Shown in pieces: positions 5,825 to 42,205 of a DNA stretch of 44,646 nucleotides (position 1 is the stretch's first letter; every line of letters begins with the position of its first letter). Source of the stretch: Chloroflexota bacterium. Lineage in GTDB: Bacteria > Chloroflexota > Anaerolineae > UBA1429. The position numbers and the translations under genes were made by a program. Below the pieces are notes generated by a model. The model had not been told where the DNA came from. It saw only the letters and a program-made list of their open reading frames with translations, and made no database searches. Location of the stretch: NCBI GenBank assembly GCA_019873625.1, contig JAIOAW010000022.1:1-44646 (forward strand), read 5' to 3'.

Positions 5825-6634
5825 CTAGATGTTCAACCCGCGCAGATGGGCCAGCCCCCGCTGAGCGGCGGTGGCCGCATCGGGCAAGGGCATAAACTCC
5901 CCTGAGATATAGCCCTCATAGCCCGTGCTGTAAAGGGCCTTGAGGATGGAGGCGAAATCGAGGTGCCCCGCGCCGGGGTACCAACGGTTCGAATCGGCCA
6001 CATGAAAGTGATAAATATGCCCTCGGCAGGCGCGAATGCTCTCCTCGATATTCGGCTCTTCGATGTTCATATGGAACGTATCGAGCAGTAGGCCCAAGTT
6101 CGGCGCGCCCACCTCCTCGATGAGGGCCAGGCCCTCGGCGGCCGTGTTGATGAGGGTCGTCTCATAGCGGTTGATGGGTTCGAGGGCGATGCGCACGTTG
6201 CAGCGCGCGGCCTGGGCGCAGCAGTGCCGCAGGGCAGCGATGAGCCATTCCATAGCCTGGTCTCGCCCCACACCGGGCCGCAAGATGCCCCGCAACAGGC
6301 CAATGATGAGGACCGCGCCCGACTGAGCGGCAAAGGGCAGGTGCGCCACGGTGCGAGCGATGGCTGCCTCGCGCACGGCAGGGTCTGGGTCGGTGTAGGA
6401 AAGGCCTTCCTCGCCCCAGGCCTGGCCCGTGCCGATAGCCACGATGTTGAGGCCGTTCGCCTCGGCTATGCGCAAAAGGGCCTCGCCATCTATCAGGGCC
6501 GGGTCGCGGATGGCTAACTCGACGCCATCATACCCCCAGGCGGCCAGGCGCGCCATATTCGCCTCCAGGTCGCCGGTGAGGGCCAGCGCCTTGAACTGCG
6601 CCGGCTGGGTAGAAAGCACGAGGGCAAGTTTCAT
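5825..6634 (-). CDS. iolO: 5-keto-L-gluconate epimerase IolO-like TIM-barrel protein
   Basis: A 269-residue xylose-isomerase-like TIM barrel. Metal-site residues are readable: Glu152 in EPINRYET, Asp185 in LLDTFHMNIEE, His211 in YHFHVADSNRWYPG and Glu246 in ISGEFMPL. The pattern closely resembles Thermotoga maritima TM0416 as I remember it, which converts 5-keto-L-gluconate to D-tagaturonate at the end of that organism's inositol pathway. AGGAGG lies just before the ATG. Genes for the three preceding steps lie directly upstream, which supports the assignment. A generic ketose 3-epimerase role is the alternative, since the same fold also acts on tagatose and ribulose. Confidence 0.85.
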   Translation of the reverse strand: MKLALVLSTQPAQFKALALTGDLEANMARLAAWGYDGVELAIRDPALIDGEALLRIAEANGLNIVAIGTGQAWGEEGLSYTDPDPAVREAAIARTVAHLPFAAQSGAVLIIGLLRGILRPGVGRDQAMEWLIAALRHCCAQAARCNVRIALEPINRYETTLINTAAEGLALIEEVGAPNLGLLLDTFHMNIEEPNIEESIRACRGHIYHFHVADSNRWYPGAGHLDFASILKALYSTGYEGYISGEFMPLPDAATAAQRGLAHLRGLNI

Positions 6635-6731
6635 AGGGCCTCCTGAAGGTACGGCCCTCCCCCGGCGCTAGATCGCTCCCCTTCCCCAAAAGAAGGCAAG
6701 CCATCTGCAGGCCGGGCGAGGGCCGAGCACA

Positions 6732-7862
6732 TCACGAAATATCCGAACTTTGGCCGATTTGCGGCAGGCCGTAGACGGGCTTCCACCCTGGGCTGAGCGG
6801 CTCGCGGAGGTAGGGTTCCATCTCGGCCGCGCTGCGGAGGGTAACCTCCTCCGTGGGCGGCACCGTGCCCGCCGGGAAGGCGGCCAAAATCTCATCGTGC
6901 ACCAGGGTCAAGTAGCGCAAGATGGCCGCCATCGGCCGCTTGGCCTTGTAGGCGGCGGCGCTGCGCGCCTTGCCCACCACGCCCTCGGGCGTAGCCGCGA
7001 TCTCGATGGCAAAATGCCCCTCGCCTTCGCTCCAGCGGCTGGGGCGGCCATAGGGGTCCACCGATTTATCAAAGTGCCCATCCGGCAAATAGTTCTTGCC
7101 CTCGGTATCCACGGCGGCGTTCATATCCACCATCTCGGGGAAGAGGAGCAGGCCGAGGGAGGTTTCTGACTCGTCCGCGTGGACGAAATTCGTCTCCCAC
7201 GCGCCGCCGCGCTCCTTGGTGCGGAAGAATTCGCGCACGGCGCGGTGCCAATCCAACACGCGAAAGATGCCGGGGAGTTGGTAGCGCTTTTGGAACTGCT
7301 GCACGGCCGATTCCAGCACCCACAGTTGGCCGTGGTTGTTGATGATGATCTGCTTGCGGAAGCCATCGTTCCACAGGCCCAGCATCACGTCAATCATCAA
7401 CTCGCGCACCACATTCTCGCGGATGACCACCGTACCCGGCATCCCCATATGATGGTAGGGGTGCGCGCCATACATCAAGGGCGGCAGCGCCAAGTTCACG
7501 GCGGGCAGGCCCTTGCGCACCTGGTAGCGACGCACGCCCTCGACGATGGCGCTCACAAAGAGGGTATCCATCGCCGAGACGGTGTGCTGGCCGTGCAGTT
7601 CGGTGCACCCCACGGGGATAAAGACGATATCATCCTTGCGGCGGTTGGCCTCTAGTTCGTGGCGGATGGTCGTCTGGATGTACGAACCCTTTTTCGCCCA
7701 TTCAATGGGCGAGGGGATGCCGTATTCCGCCAAAATGGCGTCAATCTCGGCGTCGGAGGCCTCCCAAATTTCCTTTTTCAGCCGGCCCACGGCGTTATCT
7801 TCAAAGAACAAATCCGGCTGATCGGTGGGCAAAAACCCAGCAGGGACGCGTTGTTCAGGCAT
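6732..7862 (-). CDS. iolN: 3-dehydro-scyllo-inosose hydrolase IolN (creatininase family)
   Basis: A 376-residue creatininase-fold protein. Family marks are IPVGCTELHGQHTVSAMDT (a Glu and His metal-ligand region, with a changed spacing compared with creatininase), the MYGAHPYHHMGMPGTV loop, IIINNHGQ, and HADESETSLGLLLFP, the latter being the usual HAGexETS-like metal/active segment. In T. maritima the homologous IolN opens the diketo-inositol ring to give 5-keto-L-gluconate. The start at 7862 is chosen for AAGGAG seven bases upstream; an in-frame ATG 26 codons earlier would run back into iolG. It sits 11 bases after iolG. Creatinine as substrate is unlikely given the neighbours. Confidence 0.85.
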   Translation of the reverse strand: MPEQRVPAGFLPTDQPDLFFEDNAVGRLKKEIWEASDAEIDAILAEYGIPSPIEWAKKGSYIQTTIRHELEANRRKDDIVFIPVGCTELHGQHTVSAMDTLFVSAIVEGVRRYQVRKGLPAVNLALPPLMYGAHPYHHMGMPGTVVIRENVVRELMIDVMLGLWNDGFRKQIIINNHGQLWVLESAVQQFQKRYQLPGIFRVLDWHRAVREFFRTKERGGAWETNFVHADESETSLGLLLFPEMVDMNAAVDTEGKNYLPDGHFDKSVDPYGRPSRWSEGEGHFAIEIAATPEGVVGKARSAAAYKAKRPMAAILRYLTLVHDEILAAFPAGTVPPTEEVTLRSAAEMEPYLREPLSPGWKPVYGLPQIGQSSDIS

Positions 7863-7873
7863 AAGGCAACTCC

Positions 7874-8902
7874 TTATCTTGTGATGTTCGGGGCGATTTC
7901 GCTCAGCGCCACCGGGCGGCGCTCTCGCAGAGACTTCCACGCGGCATAGCCCATCACCACGGGGATGCGCCCATCCTCGCCCGTAACGGGCGGCGTTTTA
8001 TCTTCCAAAATGCTCTCCAGAAAGGCGCGCATCTCGGCGATGTAGGCCGCGGCGTAGCGCTCGATGAAAAAGAATTCGGGGAGCGGCCCATGCACGCCCG
8101 TCGCATCGCTCAGGGTGGCGCGGTGGGGCGTCTCGTTCGCCACGGCGATCATCCCGCGCGAGCCAAAAACCTCCACGCGCTGATCGTAGCCGTACACGGC
8201 GCGGCGGCTGTTATCAATGGTGCCCAGGGCGCCGCTCGCAAAACGCAGGGTGATGAGCGCTGTATCCACATCCCCCGCTTCGCCAATGGCGGGGTCCACC
8301 AAGACGGCTCCCGTAGCATAGACCTCCTCGACCTCTGCGCCCATCAAAAAACGCGCCATATCGAAATCATGGATGGTCATATCGAGGAAGATGCCCCCCG
8401 AAACCTTGATGTAGCCGATGGGCGGCGGCTGAGGATCCCGGCTCGTGATGCGCAGGAGGTGCGGTTGGCCGATCTCGCCGCCCGCTACGGCCTGGCGCAC
8501 GCGCTGAAAACTCGGGTCAAACCGCCGATTGAACCCAATTTGCAGTTTGACGCCAGCCGCTTTCACCGCCGCTAGGGCGCGGTCAATGGCGGCCAAATCG
8601 AGCGCAATGGGCTTTTCACAAAAGATGTGCTTGCCCGCCTGCGCCGCCGCCTCGATGAGGGCGGCATGGGTATCGGTGCTCGTGCAGATGACGACGGCCT
8701 CAATGGTGGGGTCCTCAAGGATACGCCGAGGATCGTCATACGCGGCAAGGCCGTATTCGCCGGCCACTTCTTCCGCCGCGCGATAGAGGACATCAGCCAC
8801 GCCGATAAGGCGCGCCTGCGGCAGATGATAGGCCAGGTTCTGGGCATGCACGCGCCCAATGCGCCCGGCCCCCAAAAGGCCGATGTTGAGTTTTTGGGCC
8901 AT
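7874..8902 (-). CDS. iolG: inositol 2-dehydrogenase IolG (Gfo/Idh/MocA family)
   Basis: A 342-residue NAD-dependent oxidoreductase. The Rossmann motif GLLGAGRIGRVHAQN is at residues 8-22, EKP at 96-98 supplies the active-site Lys97, and GGIFLDMTIHDFD supplies Asp174 and His178. That is the K / D-x3-H arrangement of Bacillus subtilis inositol dehydrogenase. The expected reaction is myo-inositol to scyllo-inosose, the first step of catabolism. A purine-rich GGGGAAAAGGG precedes the ATG. It is 12 bases downstream of iolM and 11 upstream of iolN. Other cyclitols or sugars remain possible for this family, but the neighbours argue for inositol. Confidence 0.9.
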   Translation of the reverse strand: MAQKLNIGLLGAGRIGRVHAQNLAYHLPQARLIGVADVLYRAAEEVAGEYGLAAYDDPRRILEDPTIEAVVICTSTDTHAALIEAAAQAGKHIFCEKPIALDLAAIDRALAAVKAAGVKLQIGFNRRFDPSFQRVRQAVAGGEIGQPHLLRITSRDPQPPPIGYIKVSGGIFLDMTIHDFDMARFLMGAEVEEVYATGAVLVDPAIGEAGDVDTALITLRFASGALGTIDNSRRAVYGYDQRVEVFGSRGMIAVANETPHRATLSDATGVHGPLPEFFFIERYAAAYIAEMRAFLESILEDKTPPVTGEDGRIPVVMGYAAWKSLRERRPVALSEIAPNITR

Positions 8903-8914
8903 ACCCTTTTCCCC

Positions 8915-10075
8915 TTACATAGCGGGCTTGACGAGCACCTTGCCGCCCTCGCGCTTGGTGGTGGAGGCGATGGCCTCCACGGCCTGCTCTAGGCCGTAGC
9001 GCGCCGTGATGATGGGGCGCAGGTCCAACTTGCCCGAGGCCACCAGGCGGATGACGTTGGGGAAGGTGCCATTGCCCGAGTGCCCCTGCGCGCCAAAGAA
9101 CTGCGAGTGACGCACCTGGAAGCGCTCCAGATACATCGGCACGCGCGTGGCCGCCCGGCCGATTTGCACGATCTTGGCGTCAATGGCGAGGGCCTTTTCC
9201 ATCTCCGGCACGGTGAGGTGCGGCGCACCGGCCGCCTCCACGTGAAAGTCAAACCCCGCGCCTTTGCTCAAGGTCATCAAGACCTCCGCGGGGTTCACCT
9301 CGCGCGGGTTGTAGGTATAGTCGGCGCCCACCTTCTTGGCGAGTTCCAGCCGCCCCGGCGAGACGTCGAACACCACCACCAGGCCCGCGCCAGCCGCGCG
9401 CGCTAGGCCCGTAGCCGCCAGGCCGATGGGCCCCGCGCCAAAGACGGCCACATAATGCCCCGGCCGGAACCCGTGGGCGCGTTCGAACATAGCATTGTAG
9501 GCCACGCAGGTCGGCTCGGTGAGGGCGCCCAGTTCAAAGGCAGCCTCCTCGCTCCCCAGGCGCTCGGCGATGGCGTCAATCTTCCAGCAGTACTTTTCGT
9601 CAAGGACGATGTACTTGGCAAAGGCGCCGGGGATAGTAAAGCCGATCTCCTCCAAGTTCTCGCACTGGTTGGGGTAGCCATTGCGGCAGGGGATGCACCG
9701 CCCACACCAGATCATCTCCTCGGCGGTAACCATATCGCCCACGCGGAGGGTCTCCACCTCCGAACCGCAGGCTACCACCCGCCCCGAGAACTCGTGCCCC
9801 AAGATGGTGGGGAATTTGGTCAGGCCGGGGTAGAGGATATACCCCTCTTGATCGGTCTCATAAAAGTGCACGTCTGACCCGCACACGCCGCAGGCCTGCA
9901 CTTCGAGCACCACGTCTTTGGGGCCAGGCTGGGGGTCTGGCCAATCTCGTACCGCCAATTTGGGGTAGCGCCAGATGCTGCTCCCCGTGATGGCCTTGCC
10001 GGTGGCCTTCTCCCAATCGGAGACGGTATAACCCGGCCGCGGGTCCCACTGCGCTTCCAATACGAGTGCCCTCAT
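8915..10075 (-). CDS. iolM: scyllo-inosose 3-dehydrogenase IolM (zinc alcohol dehydrogenase family)
   Basis: A 386-residue medium-chain dehydrogenase. Catalytic zinc ligands are Cys65 (CGVCGSDVH) with His94-Glu95 (GHEFSG); structural zinc cysteines are 124, 127, 130 and 138. A Rossmann segment AVFGAGPIGLAATGLARAAGA follows. The unusual N-terminal block (WDPRPGYTVSDWEKATGKA, then SSIWRYPKL) resembles T. maritima TM0412, which oxidises scyllo-inosose to 3-dehydro-scyllo-inosose. AGGAGG is five bases before the ATG. It follows the regulator gene by 24 bases. Sorbitol or threonine dehydrogenase names are the likely generic annotations, but context favours IolM. Confidence 0.87.
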   Translation of the reverse strand: MRALVLEAQWDPRPGYTVSDWEKATGKAITGSSIWRYPKLAVRDWPDPQPGPKDVVLEVQACGVCGSDVHFYETDQEGYILYPGLTKFPTILGHEFSGRVVACGSEVETLRVGDMVTAEEMIWCGRCIPCRNGYPNQCENLEEIGFTIPGAFAKYIVLDEKYCWKIDAIAERLGSEEAAFELGALTEPTCVAYNAMFERAHGFRPGHYVAVFGAGPIGLAATGLARAAGAGLVVVFDVSPGRLELAKKVGADYTYNPREVNPAEVLMTLSKGAGFDFHVEAAGAPHLTVPEMEKALAIDAKIVQIGRAATRVPMYLERFQVRHSQFFGAQGHSGNGTFPNVIRLVASGKLDLRPIITARYGLEQAVEAIASTTKREGGKVLVKPAM

Positions 10076-10099
10076 CGCAACCTCCTATCACTCACAGGA

Positions 10100-11128
10100 T
10101 CATCGAACAAGCGGCGCCCCAGAAGAGGCGCGCACCACCAAACGCCCCCGCAGGATTACGTTGGAGGCGGCAGGTACCTTATCTTCCCTTTGCTCGGCGA
10201 GGAGGGCCAGGCCCATCTCCACGGCGCGGCGCCCCAATTCCGCCATCGGCTGGGCGATGGTGGTGAGGGCTGGCTCGATGAACGAGGCAAAGGGAATATC
10301 GTCGAACCCGACCACGGCCAAATCTCGCGGAAGGGCGAGGCCGGCCTGCTTGGCGGCATAGATGAGACCGATGGCCGTGCGGTCGTTGTAACAGAAAACG
10401 GCCGTAGGGCGCGGGCTGAGCGCCAAGAGGCGCCCCAAGGCCCGTTGGCCGCCGGTGACGTCGCCATCGCCGGGGAGGACGAGGGCTTCGTCAAAGGGGA
10501 GGCCGGCCTCGGCCAGCGCATCGCGATACCCCGCCAGGCGTTCCTGATCGTCGCTGTGGTGGGCTTGGCCGGTGATGTAGGCGATGCGCCGATGGCCCAG
10601 GCCAACCAGATGCCGCGTGGCAAGATAGCCGCCGTGGCGATTATCCACCGTGACGGCAAAGGTGTAGGGGCCGCGATCTTGGCTGTGGCTGTTGATGAGC
10701 ACGACGGGCACGCCGATGCGCTCCAAATGGGCGAGGTACAGCGCCCCCAAACGAGAGGAAAGGACGATGACGAGATCCACCCGTTTGGCGCGGAGGAGTT
10801 CCACGGCCTCGATTTCTCGTTGAGGTTCCGCTTGCGAGGAGGCCAAGATGACGCTATAGTTCGCGCTGTGCGCGGCGTCTTCGATGCCCTGCATCACTTC
10901 CGCCACAAAGGGGTCAGCAATGGTGGTAACGACTACGCCCACCGATTGCGTGCGGCCCATCACCAGGGCGCGGGCCTGCAAATCGGGAGAGTAGCCCATT
11001 TCGCGGGCTAGAGCCTGGATGCGCTGGCGCGTTTCGAGGGCCACCAAGGGGCTATCGCTCAAGGCGCGGGAGACCGTCGAATGGGAGACGCCGGCGCGGC
11101 GTGCGATATCTTTGATCGAGACGCTCAT
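10100..11128 (-). CDS. iolR: LacI-family regulator of the inositol operon
   Basis: A 342-residue LacI/GalR repressor: helix-turn-helix and hinge at residues 3-60 (IKDIARRAGVSHSTVSRALS), then a periplasmic-binding-protein-like effector domain starting SVGVVVTTIADPFVAEVMQG and containing VVGFDDIPFASFIEPALTT. The start at 11128 is the only one that puts the helix-turn-helix at the N-terminus, with GGAGG about nine bases upstream; 38 more codons are open upstream but cross the promoter and operator. It is the first gene of the operon and has a perfect palindrome at its own transcription start, so autoregulation is likely. The inducer is presumably inositol or a pathway intermediate. The symbol is by context only; T. 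maritima uses its own regulator. Confidence 0.88.
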   Translation of the reverse strand: MSVSIKDIARRAGVSHSTVSRALSDSPLVALETRQRIQALAREMGYSPDLQARALVMGRTQSVGVVVTTIADPFVAEVMQGIEDAAHSANYSVILASSQAEPQREIEAVELLRAKRVDLVIVLSSRLGALYLAHLERIGVPVVLINSHSQDRGPYTFAVTVDNRHGGYLATRHLVGLGHRRIAYITGQAHHSDDQERLAGYRDALAEAGLPFDEALVLPGDGDVTGGQRALGRLLALSPRPTAVFCYNDRTAIGLIYAAKQAGLALPRDLAVVGFDDIPFASFIEPALTTIAQPMAELGRRAVEMGLALLAEQREDKVPAASNVILRGRLVVRASSGAPLVR

Positions 11129-11150
11129 TGGGGGGAGCCTCCATCCGTTA

Positions 11151-11168
11151 TCTGCACACGTGTGCAGA
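11151..11168. promoter_or_regulatory. 18-bp palindromic operator, probable IolR site
   Basis: TCTGCACACGTGTGCAGA is a perfect inverted repeat with a central CG, the form expected of a LacI-family operator. It starts three bases after the -10 box of the leftward promoter, covering the expected transcription start, and lies 23 bases before the repressor's own start codon. I found no second perfect copy in the window. Confidence 0.85.
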
Positions 11169-11170
11169 GG

Positions 11171-11199
11171 AGTATACCACAAAGGGGCAGAGATGTCAA
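11171..11199 (-). promoter_or_regulatory. consensus sigma-70 promoter of the inositol operon
   Basis: On the minus strand TTGACA (11199-11194), a 17-base spacer and TATACT (11176-11171) are visible. It drives iolR-iolM-iolG-iolN-iolO and probably the glycosyltransferase. The -35 box overlaps the likely ATG of the divergent GT-C gene. Confidence 0.85.
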
Positions 11200-12335
11200 A
11201 GGCGCTGTGCGGACGTATACTCGATATGTGCCATTCAACCATTCACCATCCGGCCTGCTCTGTACTGCTGCCCTTCCTCCTCTCCCGCTTGGGCCTGGCA
11301 CTGGCCGGCGTGTTGGCTATTACCTACGGTCGGATGCAACCGGAAGGCTGGCACGCTTCCTCCAACGTCTGGTTGGATATATGGGCACGCTGGGATAGTA
11401 GCTTTTATCTAGAAATCGCCCGTCACGGCTATACGCAGAAAATGGGTAGCTTGCCGTATACGCCTTTCTTTCCGCTCTACCCGATGCTAATGCACCTTTT
11501 CACACCAGGTAATCAATGTTGGCACACGTTGGCTGTCACTGGTGTCGTACTTTCCAACACGTCGACGACGTTGGCACTGTGGTTGATCTACCAGCTAACC
11601 GCACTAGACCACACCGAACCTGTGGCTCGCCGGGCAGCATGGGCGGCTGCGCTCTTCCCCACGTCGTTCTTCTTCAGCGCGGTCTATACGGAGGGCCTCT
11701 TCCTCCTGTTGACGGTGGCAGCTTTTTGGTGTGCACGGCGCGGGCAGTGGTGGGCGGCGGGGTTCTTGGGCGCGCTAGCCTCGGCCACACGTTCGTTAGG
11801 TGTACTGCTGATCATACCCCTTTTTCTGGAATGGCAGGCCCGGCCAGGTTCGAGCTGGCGACAGGCACTCTGGTTGCTGCTGGTGCCCGCGGGGTTGCTT
11901 GCCTATATGGTTTACCTTCAGGCGCAATTCGGCGATGCACTGCTATTCATCCGCGCCCAGAGTGCCTGGGGACGGGTCACAACGCCCGCTGCAGCACTGG
12001 AGCGTCTGGCTACACTCGCTAACGGCGATGTGCTAGCGCGCCTGCGAAGCGTAGCCCCAGAGGTAGCCTTTACACTATTGGTAATCGGTCTAGGCCTCGT
12101 CATGCTCCGCCGCCAGCGAGCCAGTTATGCTGCTTACACGGGCTGTGCCCTGGCGTTGCCCCTCGGCACACTGCAACTCCTCGCTATGTTGCGTTTAATC
12201 ATCGTGGCATTTCCGCTATACATTGCTCTGGCAGATTGGCTGAGTCGCCGGCTCTACTGGCTGGCAATGGCCCTATTTTACGGGCTGCAGATATTCTTCT
12301 TTTGCCGGTGGGCGCTTTGGTATTGGATAGCATGA
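11193..12335 (+). CDS. GT-C (PIG-V/mannosyltransferase-like) membrane glycosyltransferase
   Basis: A 380-residue protein with about 8-9 membrane segments. The first extracytoplasmic loop carries WARWDSSFYLEIARHGYT (Trp67-Asp68) and then FFPLYPML, the signature of polyprenyl-phosphate-mannose-dependent GT-C enzymes related to PIG-V. It probably transfers a sugar to an envelope lipid or glycan outside the membrane. The start at 11193 has AAAGGGG six bases upstream; ATG 11226 is the alternative. Longer open frame upstream only mirrors the regulator gene. Codons ending in A or T and CTA/TTA leucines are more frequent here than in the flanking genes, which may mark transfer. Its start overlaps the -35 box of the inositol promoter. 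Confidence 0.8.
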   Translation: MSKALCGRILDMCHSTIHHPACSVLLPFLLSRLGLALAGVLAITYGRMQPEGWHASSNVWLDIWARWDSSFYLEIARHGYTQKMGSLPYTPFFPLYPMLMHLFTPGNQCWHTLAVTGVVLSNTSTTLALWLIYQLTALDHTEPVARRAAWAAALFPTSFFFSAVYTEGLFLLLTVAAFWCARRGQWWAAGFLGALASATRSLGVLLIIPLFLEWQARPGSSWRQALWLLLVPAGLLAYMVYLQAQFGDALLFIRAQSAWGRVTTPAAALERLATLANGDVLARLRSVAPEVAFTLLVIGLGLVMLRRQRASYAAYTGCALALPLGTLQLLAMLRLIIVAFPLYIALADWLSRRLYWLAMALFYGLQIFFFCRWALWYWIA

Positions 12336-30484: not shown

Positions 30485-31267
30485 TTAGGCTTCGCTCACG
30501 CCATAGAGCCGCACGATGATCCACAGGCTCAGGGCGGCCAAAATGGCGTTGACCGCCTCGGCCCAACCGAAGCCGTACAGGCGCGCCAACCCGGGGACGA
30601 TCACCGCGACGGAAGCGTGGTAGAGCACCGAGAAACCGAACCATCGCTTTTGGCGGAAGGCGAGGCTGGCCATCACCAAAAGCGACCAGGCCACCTGATG
30701 CGGAAGCGCCAAGACGCGCTCCAGGGCTACGAGGAGGGGTTGATCCCACGAGGTGTGCGCGATGCCGAACAGGGTGCGCTGAAGGTCTGGGGCGCCCGGC
30801 CCCAGGGTCTGCACGATTTGCGAAGGGTCTGAGCGCGAAAGGGCGATATAGGCCACCAGATAGACGACCGTCAGCCCTGAGATAAAGAGCATACTCTCCA
30901 AGGCGTTATGCCCCAAGCCATAGGCTACCCCGTTGCGCCAGGTGAGCGGATACCGCTTGCGCGCAAAAAGGACGCGATAGCCGACCCATCGGCCCCCTTC
31001 TTCCATCAGGCTGGTGCCCAGGGCCATGGCGAGCAGCCAGATGAACTTGGCGGTCTCGGTGGTTAGCCGGTCGCCAATGACCACGTCGAGGTAAAAGTTG
31101 AGGGGGAGCCAGGTGAGAAGTTGAAAGAGGCCAAAGATGAGCGCACCATAACCAAAGATGAGCCAGGGCACGCGCATACGCCTGCGAAAGAGGATCATCG
31201 CGGCCAGCGGATACCCCACCTGGACCCCAAGCGACGCGATAAAGGCTACGACCGTCGCGGCACTCAC
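30485..31267 (-). CDS. YhfC-type membrane protein, putative intramembrane metalloprotease
   Basis: A 260-residue protein with about seven membrane segments. Conserved polar motifs inside or next to helices are SLMEEGGRWVGYRVL, GLGHNALESMLF, ALERVLALPHQVAWSLLV and FSVLYHASVAV. This set of EExxR, H, ERxxxxxxH and H motifs is typical of YhfC proteins, which are grouped with the glutamic/CAAX-protease-like intramembrane proteases. No substrate is known. The start is GTG at 31267 with a G-rich site close before it and a good promoter at 31298-31325. It is monocistronic. Confidence 0.75.
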   Translation of the reverse strand: MSAATVVAFIASLGVQVGYPLAAMILFRRRMRVPWLIFGYGALIFGLFQLLTWLPLNFYLDVVIGDRLTTETAKFIWLLAMALGTSLMEEGGRWVGYRVLFARKRYPLTWRNGVAYGLGHNALESMLFISGLTVVYLVAYIALSRSDPSQIVQTLGPGAPDLQRTLFGIAHTSWDQPLLVALERVLALPHQVAWSLLVMASLAFRQKRWFGFSVLYHASVAVIVPGLARLYGFGWAEAVNAILAALSLWIIVRLYGVSEA

Positions 31268-31325: not shown

Positions 31326-31342
31326 ACGGCCACGACAATAAA

Positions 31343-31437
31343 GGGTGCGGAAGGTTCGCTTCCGCACCCCGTCATATTCTGCGGAAGTCAACTTCCGCAC
31401 TCCATATATTCTACGGGAATAAACTCCCGCACTCTAT
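31343..31437. repeat. three related small hairpin units
   Basis: Unit 1 (31343-31369) has a perfect 11-bp stem GGGTGCGGAAG/CTTCCGCACCC with loop GTTCG. Unit 2 (31380-31399) is TGCGGAAGT-CA-ACTTCCGCA. Unit 3 (about 31414-31430) is a weaker CGGGA/TCCCG form. All share the ending CCGCAC and an A/T-rich spacer with ATATTCT or CATATTCT. Unit 1 read leftward is followed by TTTATT and can terminate the beta-propeller gene that ends at 31443. There are too few and too short units, of unequal sequence, for CRISPR. Confidence 0.75.
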
Positions 31438-31442
31438 AACTG

Positions 31443-33347
31443 TCAACCGTTCAGCGCATAGCGCCAGACGATGCCGCCCAGGCTCAGAGCATAGAGGGCC
31501 TCCGGCTGGCCGTTGCCGGCGGCGATGATGCTGATGAAACTATCGGCCCCCAAGCCCTCGGAGAAGGGTTGCCAAGTGCGCCCGCTATCTATCGAAGCAA
31601 AGATGCCGTTCCCCGTGGCCGCATAGAGTACGGCGCCGTGGTCAATCTCGCCGATCGCCAAGACCGATAGCACGTTTGCCCCCTTGGGGTCCACGCGGCT
31701 GGAGATCCACACATCCTTGGCGCGGCGCAGAGGGCGCAGGCAATAAGCGCCCGTGGCCAAAACGGCCTGGCTGGCCACCTCATCCAGCACGCCGATGGGC
31801 ATAGCGATATCCACCCAGCGGGCGTCGGTGGTCTGCGTGGTGAGTTGCTGCCAGGTCTCGCCCCCATCGCGCGAGCGCCAGAGGGCGACGCGCGCTGGCG
31901 TGTTGCCCGTACCCGGAATGTGCGTGCCAAGGAAAAGGGTGCGATCGTGGGCAAAGGCCGGGGATACGGCGATGGAGAGGATCTCTTGCCCGCCGGCGGG
32001 GGTACCCGCCTCCTGCCAGGTTTGGCCACCATCCCGGCTGGCGAGCAGTTGCCCATCCGCCGTGCCGGCCCAGGCCAAAAGGCCATCCGGCGCGAGGGCC
32101 AGGGCCTGGACGTTCTGGCGCTCACACACCAACGCCCAGGTCTCTCCCCCATCGGTAGAACGCAAGATGCCGTGCTCCTGGCCAGCCACCAAGAGGTTAT
32201 CGGGCCGATGCAAGGCCCGCCCAGAAAGGGGCAAATAGGCGTCCAAACCCGTCAAACGCCGCCAGGGGCCGCCCGAGGCCTCCTCGCGCCACAGCCCTTC
32301 TTGCGGGCCGATGGCGTAGAGGCGCCCGCCGACGGAGGCCAGGCTGGCAAAACCGCGCGCGGCCAATCCCGTCGAGATGGAGGCCCACGTCTCGCCGCCA
32401 TCGGTGGATTTCCACACGCCGGCGTCATACAACCCCGCAAGGAGCACCGGACCATCTCCCGTAAGGGAAAGGATCGTCCCCGGCAACCGGGCAGCGGGGC
32501 GCCACGTCTCCCCGGCATCGGTGGAAATCAAAACCTCCGCGCCTACGCCGGCCACCAAACGGCGACTCTCAGCGAAATCCGGCGCCACCCACAGGCAGTT
32601 GATCGGGCCTTGGCCCAAGTTCTCTTGCAGGGCCTCCCACCTGCGTCCGCCATCTCGGCTGCGGTAGAGCGTGCCCTCCTCAGTACCCGCAAAGACGGTC
32701 TGATCTTGATCGAACATCGGGCTGACGGCCAGCGCCGAGACGGTTTCTTCCGCCTCCGTAAAGCCCGTCTCGCGCCAAGCGCGGCCCCCGTTGCGCGAGA
32801 TGAATATGCCATCCGGCGTGGCGGCGAACATCGTCTCACTGCGAGACCAATCGGGCGCCGCAGCCACAGCCAGGATAGTGGCATCGCCGATGCCGAAACT
32901 ACTATCTTCCCAAGAGTTGCCCGAGTTGCGCGTAGCAAGCAGGCCCCCGCCATCCGTTGCGGCAAAGGCCGTGCCATCTTCCGAGAATTTGGGCGAGGCG
33001 AGCACGGCGGTCACTGTAGCCTTGAGTTCTTGAGGCACCAGGCCGGCCTTCCAGGTGAGGCCGAAATCCAACGAGACAAAGAGGTCCCCATCCAAGGCCC
33101 CGGCGAAGAGCGCGCCGTTAGGGGCCACGCCGATGGCGCTCAGGAGCGGCGTCGTCAACCCGCGAAGGCTCTGCGCCCAGGTTTGGCCGCCATCGCGCGA
33201 GATGAACACGCCGCAACTGGTGGCCGCCCAATAGGCCGGCACGCTCGGCACCGGCGAAATGGCCAGGCTGAAAACCGTTCCCCCGGTGGAGATAGGCCCC
33301 CGGTATTCCCAACGTTTCGTTTGAGAATCGCCTTTCGAAGCGCTCAT
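31443..33347 (-). CDS. BNR-repeat (sialidase/YCF48-like) beta-propeller protein
   Basis: A 634-residue protein made almost wholly of repeats with Asp-box cores: SRDGGQTWAQ, TRNSGNSWED, SRNGGRAWRE, SRDGGRRWEA, STDAGETWRP, STDGGETWAS, STDGGETWAL, SRDGGQTWQE, SRDGGETWQQ and SIDSGRTWQP. This predicts one or two beta-propellers as in sialidases, Ycf48 and sortilin. There is no signal peptide, so it may be cytoplasmic or exported by another route. No sialidase catalytic Arg triad or Glu is evident, so a binding or assembly role is more likely than hydrolysis. Its ATG overlaps the stop of the GroEL-like gene (ATGA), which implies coordinated synthesis. Confidence 0.83.
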   Translation of the reverse strand: MSASKGDSQTKRWEYRGPISTGGTVFSLAISPVPSVPAYWAATSCGVFISRDGGQTWAQSLRGLTTPLLSAIGVAPNGALFAGALDGDLFVSLDFGLTWKAGLVPQELKATVTAVLASPKFSEDGTAFAATDGGGLLATRNSGNSWEDSSFGIGDATILAVAAAPDWSRSETMFAATPDGIFISRNGGRAWRETGFTEAEETVSALAVSPMFDQDQTVFAGTEEGTLYRSRDGGRRWEALQENLGQGPINCLWVAPDFAESRRLVAGVGAEVLISTDAGETWRPAARLPGTILSLTGDGPVLLAGLYDAGVWKSTDGGETWASISTGLAARGFASLASVGGRLYAIGPQEGLWREEASGGPWRRLTGLDAYLPLSGRALHRPDNLLVAGQEHGILRSTDGGETWALVCERQNVQALALAPDGLLAWAGTADGQLLASRDGGQTWQEAGTPAGGQEILSIAVSPAFAHDRTLFLGTHIPGTGNTPARVALWRSRDGGETWQQLTTQTTDARWVDIAMPIGVLDEVASQAVLATGAYCLRPLRRAKDVWISSRVDPKGANVLSVLAIGEIDHGAVLYAATGNGIFASIDSGRTWQPFSEGLGADSFISIIAAGNGQPEALYALSLGGIVWRYALNG

Positions 33348-34948
33348 GGCGACATACTCTCCTGTGGTTTGCGGTGTAGAACAAGGGCGTCGGTCGTGAG
33401 GAGCATCAGCGCGCCGCTCACGGCCTGTTGGAGCGCACGTTTGACCACCATCGCTGGGTCGGCGATGCCCGCAGCGATCATATCCACGATCTGCTGAGTG
33501 CGCACGTCGAACCCGTAGCCGGGGCCGGCGCGGCGGGCATCGGCGATGACCACGGGCGGGTAAGCGCCGCTGTTCTGGGCAATACAGCGCATCGGCTCCT
33601 CCAGCGCCCGCGCCAAGATGCGCACGCCGATGGCCTCATCCTCATCCTCCACCGGTGTGGCCTCCACGGCGGGGATGCAGGCCAAATAGGCCGCCCCGCC
33701 GCCCGGCACGATGCCGCTTTCCATCCCGGCCACCACCGTCTTCATCGCCTGCTCGGCGAGTTCCCGCAGCGCGTTGCGTTCTTGGCTGGTGAGCGCGCCG
33801 ATGCGCAACTCGGCCACGCCCGCCGAAAAGTGGGTGATCAACTCGCGGAGCGTCTCGCGCTCTTCTTTATCGTGCGTTTCGCGGGCGCGCTGGCGCAGTT
33901 TTTTGACGCGCTCGTTCATCGCCGCTTTATCGCCATGGCCGCCGATGATCATAAAGTACTCCGCCGTAGAGATCACGCGGTCGGCTCGGCCGAAATCCTC
34001 GATGGTGATCGCCTCCGGCGAATGGCCGGTGCGATCCGACAAGGGGCGCCCACCCGTCAGGAGGGCGATATTCTCGATCGTCCCACGGCGCAGGTCTCCA
34101 ATGGGCTTGAGGTTTGTGGCGCAGGAGCGGATGATGCCCCGCTCGTTGTTGGCCACCATCACGCCGATGGCCTTATCGGAGACGATGCGGCAGATGATGA
34201 ACACCGACTTGCCCCCCGCGCGGTAGACCACCTCCAGCGCGTGCTGCATACTCTCGGCCGTCTCAAAGTTCAAATCCCCCACGAGGACGTAGGGCTGCTC
34301 GAGAACGGCCACACGGCGCGTCTGGTCGGTGATGAGGTATGGAGAGACGTAACTCCCCCTGAAGCGCGCCCCTTGGTGATAAACGCGGTCATGCGTCGTG
34401 GAGACGTACGGCTCGATGACGACGCTCGCCACCGGCCCGAGGACGTCATAAATCTCCCCCAAGAGCCGGCCGATCTCCGCATCGCCGATGGCGGCAGTGG
34501 CCACCGCCGCGATGCGCTCTTCGCCCTCCAAAGGGATGGCCATTTCATCCAAAGCCTTGAGGGCCACCTCGGTGGCCTTCTCGATGCCTCGCTTGAGCAT
34601 CATCGCGTTGGCGCCGGCGGCGATCATCCGCTGCATCTCGCGGGCCACGGCCAAGGCCAGCACGGCGGCGGTGGCGCTCCCATCGCCCACTTCCTCGCGC
34701 ATATGCCACACGAGGTGGCGCATCATCATCGCGCCTACATCTTCGACGCGATCGGGCAGTTGGATGATGCGCCGCACGATGGTGGCGCCGTCGGTGAGGA
34801 TTTCGGGGTTGGTGGTCATATCGCGGGCGTTGACGATGTTGCCGCCCACCGGGCCGAGGGTGAGGGCAAGAAGCCTCGCCATAGATTCAAAGCCTCGGAG
34901 CATCCCGACGCGGCCCTTTTCTCCCAAGACCACATCTGGTTTAGGCAT
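33344..34948 (-). CDS. divergent GroEL-like group I chaperonin paralogue
   Basis: A 534-residue protein alignable along GroEL. Kept: LGPVGGNIV, TDGATIV (Asp53, GroEL Asp52), EVGDGSATAAVLA (Asp89, GroEL Asp87, with DGTTT changed to DGSAT), LKRGIEKA, IGDLRRGTIENIALLTGG and GIVPGGGAAYL. Changed: the residue matching catalytic Asp398 is Gln400 (LAEQAMKT against VEDALHAT), and the GGM tail is missing. In GroEL, loss of Asp398 nearly stops ATP hydrolysis but not binding, so this paralogue may be a slow or non-cycling cage or hold a special client. No groES is adjacent; the coupled downstream gene encodes a beta-propeller protein. A good promoter is at 35000-35028. Confidence 0.87.
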   Translation of the reverse strand: MPKPDVVLGEKGRVGMLRGFESMARLLALTLGPVGGNIVNARDMTTNPEILTDGATIVRRIIQLPDRVEDVGAMMMRHLVWHMREEVGDGSATAAVLALAVAREMQRMIAAGANAMMLKRGIEKATEVALKALDEMAIPLEGEERIAAVATAAIGDAEIGRLLGEIYDVLGPVASVVIEPYVSTTHDRVYHQGARFRGSYVSPYLITDQTRRVAVLEQPYVLVGDLNFETAESMQHALEVVYRAGGKSVFIICRIVSDKAIGVMVANNERGIIRSCATNLKPIGDLRRGTIENIALLTGGRPLSDRTGHSPEAITIEDFGRADRVISTAEYFMIIGGHGDKAAMNERVKKLRQRARETHDKEERETLRELITHFSAGVAELRIGALTSQERNALRELAEQAMKTVVAGMESGIVPGGGAAYLACIPAVEATPVEDEDEAIGVRILARALEEPMRCIAQNSGAYPPVVIADARRAGPGYGFDVRTQQIVDMIAAGIADPAMVVKRALQQAVSGALMLLTTDALVLHRKPQESMSP

Positions 34949-34999: not shown

Positions 35000-35028
35000 A
35001 GTATACCATCAAACCCCCTGATCGCCAA
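35000..35028 (-). promoter_or_regulatory. promoter of the GroEL-like/BNR operon
   Basis: Minus-strand TTGGCG (35028-35023) and TATACT (35005-35000) are 17 bases apart, 51 bases before the ATG. No CIRCE inverted repeat (TTAGCACTC-type) is seen, so it is not under classical HrcA control. Confidence 0.65.
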
Positions 35029-39378: not shown

Positions 39379-40146
39379 CTATTCCTTGGGCGCAGCCATC
39401 TCTCCTAGGGCGTACAAGATAATCGCCGAGGCGGCGATGCCCGCCGTTTCGGCGCGAAGGACGCGCGGCCCGAGCGATACGATGCGCATACCCGCCTGCG
39501 CCGCGCGAGAGACCTCTTCGGGCGAAAAATCCCCCTCCGGCCCAACGAAAAGGCATATCGCCTGAGGCGGTGCAACGCGGAGAGGTTCGAGCACCTCGTG
39601 AAGGCTCGCCGCTTGGGGCGCCAGGGCGGCCATCAAGCAAGGCGTTCCGGGGGGAAGCGCGGCCAGGGCCTGCTCAAAGGTTTGCACCAGGCCCAATTCC
39701 GGCAAGCGAGCGCGGCCCGCCTGTTCCGCCGCCTCTTGGATGATGCGCCGCCACCTCTCCAACCGCTGGGGGCCGATGTGCTCGGCGGCCTGAAGTATGC
39801 TCCGCTGGGTGATGAGGGGCACAAAGGCGCTCACGCCGAGTTCCGTGCCCTTTTGCAGAACCCACTCGAACCGTTCGCCCTTGAGCAGGGCCTGGTAGAG
39901 GATGAGACGAAGGCGCGCCTCCGTGCCGGGAGAAAAGGCGCGTAGGAGCCGCGCCTGGGCGGCCTGCGGCCCTAGATGGAGGAGTTCGGCCTCATAGGCG
40001 AGGCCGGAATTATCCAAGAGCACGATGCACTCGCCGGGCTTGAGGCGCAAGACCCTCCCCAACTGGCGCCCGAGGCCGCCCGCCAAGGTTACCACATCGC
40101 CTTGGCCCAGCCATTCGGGCGGCACAAAAAAGCGGTAGGTGCTCAT
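39379..40146 (-). CDS. rsmE: 16S rRNA m3U1498 methyltransferase RsmE
   Basis: A 255-residue SPOUT methyltransferase that methylates N3 of U1498 in 16S rRNA. A PUA-like N-terminal domain (YRFFVPPEWL, VLRLKPGECIVLLDNSG) precedes the trefoil-knot domain with LFVGPEGDFSPEEV and SLGPRVLRAETAGIAASAII, the SAM-binding signature. The start at 40146 overlaps the prmA stop as ATGA and gives the usual N-terminus; ten codons further upstream are not needed. prmA-rsmE pairing is common in bacteria. Confidence 0.95.
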   Translation of the reverse strand: MSTYRFFVPPEWLGQGDVVTLAGGLGRQLGRVLRLKPGECIVLLDNSGLAYEAELLHLGPQAAQARLLRAFSPGTEARLRLILYQALLKGERFEWVLQKGTELGVSAFVPLITQRSILQAAEHIGPQRLERWRRIIQEAAEQAGRARLPELGLVQTFEQALAALPPGTPCLMAALAPQAASLHEVLEPLRVAPPQAICLFVGPEGDFSPEEVSRAAQAGMRIVSLGPRVLRAETAGIAASAIILYALGEMAAPKE

Positions 40147-41090
40147 CTCGCCTTTCGGCCGATGAGGGCGATCCATCCTTCCTCGATGAGGTGCTCCTCC
40201 ACATCGAGGCCCGCGCCCTCCAGGGCCTTGGCCACGGCCTCGCCCTTTTCGACGAGAATGCCCGACGCTACAAAGCGCCCACCGGGGCGCAGCGCGGCGG
40301 CGATGCTGCTGGCCAGGGGGATGATGACCTCCGCCAGAATGTTGATGAGGAGGAGGTCGAACCCGCCCTGGGTGAAAAGGGGCACCGCCGAGGGCGCGAG
40401 TCCCGGCAGGGTGGCCCAGGCCACCTGAACGCGCCCTTGCACGCCGTTGAGGGCGGCGTTTTCGGCGGCCACTTGGGCGGCCACGGGGTCATTATCAATC
40501 GCCCAAACCTCCCCCGCGCCGAGGAGGGCGGCGGCAATGGCCAGGATGCCCGAACCGGTGCCCACATCCAGCACGCGCGCACCCGGCGCGAGGAGCCGTT
40601 CCAGGGCCACCAGGCAAAGGCGGGTGCTCGCGTGGAGGCCCGTGCCAAAGGCCATACCGGGGTCCAAGCGAAGGATGATCTCATAAGGTTTGGGCGCATA
40701 ATCCACCCACGTGGGCACGACGACAAGCCTCTCGCCAATGGGCAGGGGCGGGAAGAAGGCCTTCCAAGCCTCGGCCCAATCCTTATCCGCCAAGACGCGA
40801 ACGCGCGGCTCGGAAATGGCCCCCGTGCGCGCCAAGAGGAGGAGGGCGATCTCCAGTTTCTGGAGCGTAGCCCGATCTCCCGTGGGGAGGAACCCCTTGA
40901 CCGTGACGCGGGCGGTAGGCTCACCCCCTTCCAGGAGGGTGCCACCAGCCCCGTAAAGGGGCGGCGCGAGTTCCTCTACCACAGCCCCGCCCGTGCAGTA
41001 CCGGTTCAGAAGGTTGACCACGTCATCCACGGCGCCGCGTTCCGCCTCCACGGCGATCTCCACCCAGCGTTGGTCAAGCGAAGAGGTCAT
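40143..41090 (-). CDS. prmA: ribosomal protein L11 methyltransferase PrmA
   Basis: A 315-residue SAM-dependent enzyme that trimethylates ribosomal protein L11. An N-terminal substrate domain starting [20 protein letters not shown] is joined to the catalytic domain with [45 protein letters not shown] and [10 protein letters not shown], the NxLA substrate-contact motif. The start overlaps the dnaJ stop by four bases (ATGA) and its own stop overlaps rsmE, so three proteins are translationally coupled. Confidence 0.95.
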
Positions 41091-42205
41091 AGGCCAAAGA
41101 CCTCTTTCAGGCGCTCGATGAAACTCCGCCCAGGTTGGGGCACCACCTCCCGGCCCAGCGTTTTGCCCAACTCGGCAAGGAGGGCCTTCTGGTGCGCGTC
41201 GAGGTTCGTGGGGATGGAGACGTTGAGGATGACGATTTGGTCTCCACGCCCGTTCCGATGGAGACGGGGCACGCCGCGCCCCTTGAGGCGGACGACGGTT
41301 CCCGGCTGGGTGCCGGCGGCGATGGTCAACTTTTCTTCGCCATCGAGGGTGGGCACGCGAATCTCATCGCCAAGGGCGGCCTGGGCGATGTTGATGTTCA
41401 CGCTGAGCAGGATGTCATCCTCGCGCCGCTGGAAGAAGGGATGCGGCTTGACGTGCAACATCACATACAGGTTGCCGGGCGGCCCGCCATAAAGGCCACT
41501 CTCGCCCTCGCCGCTCAGGCGCAAACGCATGCCGTCATCCACGCCGGCGGGCACGTCCACCACCAGCCGGCGAATCTGTTCGGCGCGCCCAGTGCCGTGG
41601 CACGTCGAACAGGGCGTGGTGATGATCTCGCCCGTGCCCCGGCAACGAGGGCAGGTGGTTACATTCACAAAGGTCCCAAAGATGGATTGTTGGGCGCGGC
41701 GGATCTGCCCGGTGCCGTGGCACTCGGGGCAGCGGATGGGCGAGGTGCCCGGCTCTGCGCCCGTGCCTTGGCATTCGGGGCACGTCTCTTGGCGGGCGAT
41801 TTGAATCTCTTTGCTGCAGCCAAAGACGGCCTCTTCGAAGGTGATCTCGAGGTCGTAACGCAAATCGGAGCCGCGCACAGGGCCAGGCCGGCTGGCGCGC
41901 CCCCCAAAGCCAAAGAGGTCGCTGAAAATATCCTCAAACCCAAAACCGAAGCCGCCAAACCCGCTGAGGTCGGTTTGCTCTAGGCCGGCGTGGCCATAGC
42001 GGTCATAGCGGGCGCGCAATTCATCGTTATTGAGCACCTGGTAGGCCTCGTTAATCTCTTTGAAGCGCGCTTCGGCATCCGGCTCTTTGCTCACATCGGG
42101 GTGGTAGCGCCGCGCCAACCGCCGGTAAGCCGCTCGAATTTCCTCTTTGGTGGCATTACGGGGCACTTCGAGAATCTGATAATAATCGCGTTTACTCTCA
42201 GCCAT
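41087..42205 (-). CDS. dnaJ: chaperone DnaJ
   Basis: A 372-residue type A Hsp40 that stimulates DnaK. The J domain is at 5-70 with HPD in [11 protein letters not shown]; a Gly/Phe region follows ([15 protein letters not shown]); four zinc-finger CxxCxGxG repeats lie at about 138-205 ([32 protein letters not shown]); and the C-terminal substrate domains include [20 protein letters not shown]. dnaK and grpE are not in the window. A promoter is predicted 46 bases upstream and no CIRCE element is seen. It heads a four-gene operon with prmA and rsmE. Confidence 0.96.

Follow-up and report, generated by a model that had tools for sequence, protein, structure and literature searches.

A conserved GroEL paralogue of Chloroflexota lacks the catalytic Asp398 and is often encoded beside an Asp-box beta-propeller

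The window analyzed here is a stretch of 44,646 nucleotides, contig JAIOAW010000022.1 of assembly GCA_019873625.1, from a member of the Chloroflexota. On its minus strand lies a 534-residue open reading frame recognized as a full-length group I chaperonin by Pfam model PF00118 (E-value 2e-47), by predicted fold, and by NCBIfam. Its stop codon overlaps the start codon of the next gene downstream, which encodes a beta-propeller and is preceded by AGGAGA, a possible ribosome-binding site. A first-pass annotation of this DNA had singled out the chaperonin, and was silent on its strand and on the overlapping propeller gene. Features of the locus are collected in Table 1.

Table 1. Features of the chaperonin locus and its surroundings, in window coordinates.
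Feature	Position	Strand	Basis or remark
GroEL paralogue (Cpn60), 534 aa, Gln400 at GroEL Asp398 position, C-terminal proline	34948..33344	minus	
Codon 400 (Gln), replacing the catalytic Asp398 codon	33749..33751	minus	residue 400 counted from 34948; alignment
ATGA overlap of chaperonin stop and propeller start, 4 nt	33344..33347	minus	sequence
Asp-box (BNR/Ycf48/sortilin-type) beta-propeller, 634 aa	33347..31443	minus	next gene downstream of chaperonin
Promoter-like site TTGGCG-17-TATACT, extended -10	35000..35028	minus	between URO-D-like gene and chaperonin; weak
Terminator-like hairpin, 12 pairs	31342..31370	minus	after propeller gene; weak
YhfC-like intramembrane metalloprotease gene	30485-31267	minus	directly after propeller
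rsmE	39379-40176		near dnaJ
prmA	40143-41090		next to dnaJ
dnaJ	41087-42205	minus	about 6 kb from chaperonin
Sugar metabolism genes	5825-11242		

The window contains no groES gene and no match to the CIRCE element with up to three mismatches allowed, as the first-pass annotation had stated for the vicinity of the gene. The genome has just two groES genes, and each adjoins one of two canonical groEL genes on other contigs (C34 and C5). The promoter-like site and the hairpin that flank the chaperonin and propeller genes are weak evidence, consistent with a two-gene operon at no more than chance level: two promoter-like sites were found in the region against 1.2 expected by chance, and five terminator-like hairpins against 5.6. 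The URO-D-like and TIM-barrel genes upstream were not found at any other locus examined, so a metabolic operon that includes them was ruled out, and the YhfC-like gene was rejected as a third member of the unit because it lies near the pair in just three relatives. It is therefore the pair, and not the region, that is conserved. Elsewhere in the window, dnaJ is adjoined by prmA and rsmE, and the sugar metabolism genes comprise a creatininase-like gene, a GFO/IDH/MocA oxidoreductase, a zinc alcohol dehydrogenase, a xylose-isomerase-like gene and a LacI regulator.

The 534-residue protein belongs to the group I chaperonin (Cpn60/HSP60) superfamily. It scores 162 bits against Pfam Cpn60_TCP1 (cut-off 34.3) and 405 bits against NCBIfam PRK12849 (cut-off 352). 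It is outside GroEL proper: its score against the GroEL equivalog model TIGR02348, 383.6 bits, falls below the cut-off of 582.1, Asp398 is absent, and there is no groES-groEL operon. An AlphaFold model of the single subunit (pLDDT 87) predicts a GroEL fold, and its best Foldseek matches are all GroEL/Hsp60, with E-values down to 1e-49 and TM-scores of about 0.8. Chlamydial GroEL2 and GroEL3 are likewise divergent GroEL paralogues with changes around the ATP and GroES sites (PMC1892554), but they belong to a different phylum, and the window protein scores 140 against the GroEL3 model and 121 against the GroEL2 model, where the NCBIfam cut-offs are 600. A phage origin was rejected, as the best listed chaperonins of the phage collection are at most 34% identical, and neither the chaperonin nor the propeller gene gave a PADLOC match to a defence system.

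In GroEL, Asp398 activates water for ATP hydrolysis, D52 is a second acid near the gamma-phosphate, and D87 is the Mg-binding Asp. We aligned the window protein by MAFFT with E. coli K-12 GroEL (locus L034) and about 33 relatives. Q400 falls in the GroEL D398 column, 16 residues before the GGG motif with no gap between; the aligned stretch sets 20 protein letters against EQAMKTVVAGMESGIVPGGG. Counting from GGG, the first-pass annotation had placed a Gln at the Asp398 position, and the alignment with GroEL and Chloroflexota paralogues bears this out, with Q400 and no Asp of the window protein in that column. Its further statements, that the Asp52 and Asp87 equivalents are kept, that DGTTT reads DGSAT and that the GGM tail is lost, hold as well. 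The protein thus resembles GroEL/Hsp60 in being a full-length Cpn60 with a predicted three-domain fold that keeps the TLGP residues (T30, G32, P33), D52, D87, G414-G416 and D495. It differs in the loss of D398, in the changes K51 to T, T89-T90 to S-A (in the altered DGTTT) and N479 to D, in the tail HRKPQESMSP with its fixed C-terminal proline in place of GGM, and in having a propeller partner gene and no groES.

The two canonical GroELs that share the genome allow a reading in which the paralogue is a minor subunit of mixed rings and tunes their ATPase cycle; chloroplast Cpn60 and CCT offer known examples of such rings. We regard this as improbable, because the paralogue is only 35% identical to the GroELs of its own genome, differs from canonical GroEL at intersubunit positions (R197 to G, E59 to R), and has a separate locus with its own partner.

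Of 14 same-family genomes, 12 encode an intact orthologue that is 57-71% identical. Among 13 same-family sequences, the window included, residue 398 is Q in eleven, E in one and H in one. Class-wide and phylum-wide searches (the phylum sample being 400 genomes), supplemented by neighbourhood retrieval, brought the number of D398-less paralogues besides the window to 62, spread across Chloroflexota. The relatives that carry names are MAGs assigned to Caldilineaceae, Anaerolineae and Chloroflexi (L055, L056, L068), which makes the source organism a Chloroflexota member, of the Caldilineaceae lineage. For other phyla the analysis covered the 80 top-ranked loci from a single genome scan, so the range of the group may be wider. 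The substitution of Gln is not a chance event, since none of the 62 has D at the site, compared with 92 of 92 canonical GroELs in the same comparison. A separate residue table likewise has D at 398 in all 30 canonical rows and in all ten D398-retaining paralogues. In a phylogenetic tree the canonical GroELs form one well supported group and parsimony requires a single D398 change, with deep branches short, several rows long, and one D398-bearing sequence on a long branch (L164) left unplaced.

The residues found at site 398 in the 62 paralogues are E (17), R (15), Q (10), H (7), K (7), N (3), A (2) and Y (1). With no residue preferred across the clade, the pattern agrees better with a catalytic role that was lost than with one taken over by a substitute. 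The other acids are largely kept: D87 in 55 of 62, D52 in 52 and D495 in 61. One might argue that useful ATP hydrolysis persists through another residue and that the substitution alters kinetics only, because E, the commonest residue at the site, could act as a base and D52 is kept in most members. This seems to us decidedly unlikely, since the window has Q, others have R, K, H, A or Y with no common substitute base among them, and the D398A change leaves GroEL only 2-3% of its activity (PMC3326522, PMC3813556).

The paralogues share signature residues unlike those of canonical GroEL, namely E48, L50, R58, R59, M72 and R75 (E. coli numbering), together with a short, fixed tail whose last residue is proline. 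The latter occurs in 55 of 60 D398-less and in 12 D398-retaining paralogues but in no canonical GroEL, the terminal proline in the E. coli GroEL row being a truncation artefact. The window and loci L005-L022 have a tail of fixed length and of the type HRKPxxSxEP. We considered whether the proline could be a by-product of the CC-ATGA overlap and ruled this out: all four Pro codons are used, before all three stop codons, so the residue is kept at the protein level. Nei-Gojobori comparisons between orthologues gave dN of 0.06-0.25 and dS of 0.6-1.4, for a dN/dS of about 0.07-0.22, with dS values above 1 near saturation. The chaperonin paralogue is therefore under purifying selection. This contradicts the view that it is a decaying duplicate with no dedicated function, a view for which the drift of several ATP-site positions in the clade might be cited. 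With the gene intact in the window and in 12 of 14 same-family relatives, and with tail and signature residues invariant, decay is extremely improbable.

The downstream propeller matches Ycf48 by phmmer (E-value 3e-12) and the Pfam families Sortilin-Vps10 and PSII_BNR, is related to HCF136, and has at least ten recognizable Asp boxes. Inspection of its N-terminal sequence found no signal peptide, and the protein should accordingly be cytosolic. It shares Asp-box repeats with the BNR propellers of the Ycf48, HCF136 and sortilin type, but differs from them in lacking a signal peptide, in being about twice as long, and in its non-photosynthetic context. Of the 58 D398-less paralogues that could be assessed, 41 are followed directly by a propeller gene on the same strand, versus 0 of 83 canonical GroELs (Fisher p 3e-22, a value that ignores shared ancestry and so overstates independence). 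The propeller is adjacent in 12 of 12 cases in the window's own family where the contig continues, and adjacency is seen from 71% down to about 40% identity. We know of no propeller pairing for chlamydial GroEL2 or GroEL3.

The remaining 17 of 58 assessable paralogues (about 30%) have no adjacent propeller, a count to be read in the light of MAG contigs that may lack genes. They include two coherent subclades, one with H398 (L146-L149 and L055) and one with K398 (L052, L155-L157, L159 and L056), so the pairing is no rule for the whole clade. The chaperonin genes of these two subclades have sugar-related genes, a transaldolase-like gene or transporters nearby instead. Some close propeller homologues, in turn, stand without an adjoining chaperonin (L250, L253, L255, L256), which rules out a strict, two-way obligate pairing.

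Outside the class, D398 and the propeller occur together in three paralogues (L214-L216); L217-L220, L225, L227, L232 and L233 combine the propeller with E398 and mostly with D87N as well. Four others (L209, L211-L213) keep D398 with no adjacent propeller, and two of their genomes encode a full-length member of this propeller family at another place. The three D398-retaining paralogues with a propeller indicate that pairing probably preceded the loss of D398. The simplest order suggested by these sequences would be duplication, then acquisition of the signature residues and tail, then pairing with the propeller, and then loss of D398.

The conserved pair of chaperonin and propeller is the best clue to function. 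It could reflect shared regulation without any client relation. The reading we favour, to which we give a probability of roughly one half, is that the paralogue is a group I chaperonin dedicated to the co-encoded propeller and powered by the binding of ATP, of which it would hydrolyze little. Two points from known chaperonins favour it: in eukaryotes CCT has WD40 propellers among its core clients (PMC9117761), and the GroEL-like MmoG, encoded beside its client, soluble methane monooxygenase, is a precedent for such dedication (PMC7994243). The likeness to MmoG/MimG lies in a GroEL-like gene beside a conserved partner gene; in contrast, no monooxygenase gene, diiron or other, was found among the neighbouring genes scanned, and the partner here is a predicted cytosolic beta-propeller.

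The propeller might instead be a cofactor, either an apical adaptor or lid replacing GroES or a component of a stable structural complex with another client. The constancy of the pairing, the lack of a third groES in the genome, and the occurrence of the partner in just two sizes, short (about 300 residues) or long (about 640 residues), would all suit such a role. So would the apical groove, where the window's clade has L234Q/A, V264A and F204L/M (L234Q, V264A and F204L in the window itself), positions known to contact GroES or substrate in GroEL. Y199, Y203, L237 and V263, however, are mostly kept in the clade, so that GroES binding, though doubtful, may still occur. There is also no fusion or interface evidence, and the single-sequence structure model of the propeller has a pLDDT of 40. 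We consider an adaptor or lid unlikely, if a serious competitor. The same groove residues, taken with the absence of an additional groES, bear on the suggestion of the first-pass annotation that the protein acts as a stable cage or holdase: this is possible as far as it goes, but incomplete, and a GroES-capped cage is not supported.

The GroEL mutant D398A binds ATP normally and has about 2-3% of wild-type ATPase activity, and it still encapsulates and folds protein, with slower release from the apical domains (PMC3326522, PMC3813556, PMC5855711). The paralogue is missing the same catalytic residue and keeps the nucleotide-binding residues; it differs in occurring naturally, in being conserved, and in carrying additional changes in the ATP pocket, the apical groove and the tail. 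From the behaviour of the mutant and the retained pocket residues, the window protein can with good reason be expected to bind ATP and to hydrolyze it at a very low rate. As a dedicated chaperonin, the paralogue would have arisen by GroEL duplication in Chloroflexota and would have lost Asp398 once the pairing with the propeller was set, with the ATP-binding residues retained. It would form a ring that binds ATP, hydrolyzes it very slowly, and hence works through ATP binding. The ring would capture the nascent propeller, its putative client and physical partner, by way of translational coupling, and would hold or shelter it during blade closure. Release would be gated by ATP binding or by partner exchange, with no hydrolysis timer.

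The shared loss of D398 and the mostly kept propeller point to an undescribed chaperonin, one that is probably ATP-binding and not ATP-burning; a literature search, with most subscription journals outside it, found no paper on the pair. More speculatively, and with the odds in our judgment somewhat against so broad a claim, this may be a GroEL-derived ring without ATP turnover that has an obligate propeller partner (client, adaptor, or substitute for GroES as a lid), is widespread in Chloroflexota, and had hydrolysis removed after the partnership was formed. The paralogue would also be an unusual instance of a bacterial chaperonin tied genetically to a single apparent partner, which here belongs to a fold class dependent on CCT in eukaryotes. 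What ATP hydrolysis contributes to chaperonins beyond binding has so far been probed with the laboratory mutant D398A, and the natural D398-less clade, together with relatives that retain D398 and share the propeller, offers a ready evolutionary series for this question.

Seven members from outside the class (L217, L219, L225, L227, L232, L233 and L234) combine E398 with D87N, in the motif DNGAAT, so that they lack the Mg-binding Asp as well; the contig that carries L234 ends there, and its downstream gene falls outside it. With some members lacking D52 or D87, a fraction of the clade may no longer bind ATP. One genome (G029) encodes three D398-less paralogues (L170, L171 and L172), each beside its own short propeller of about 330 residues, which suggests expansion of the pair.
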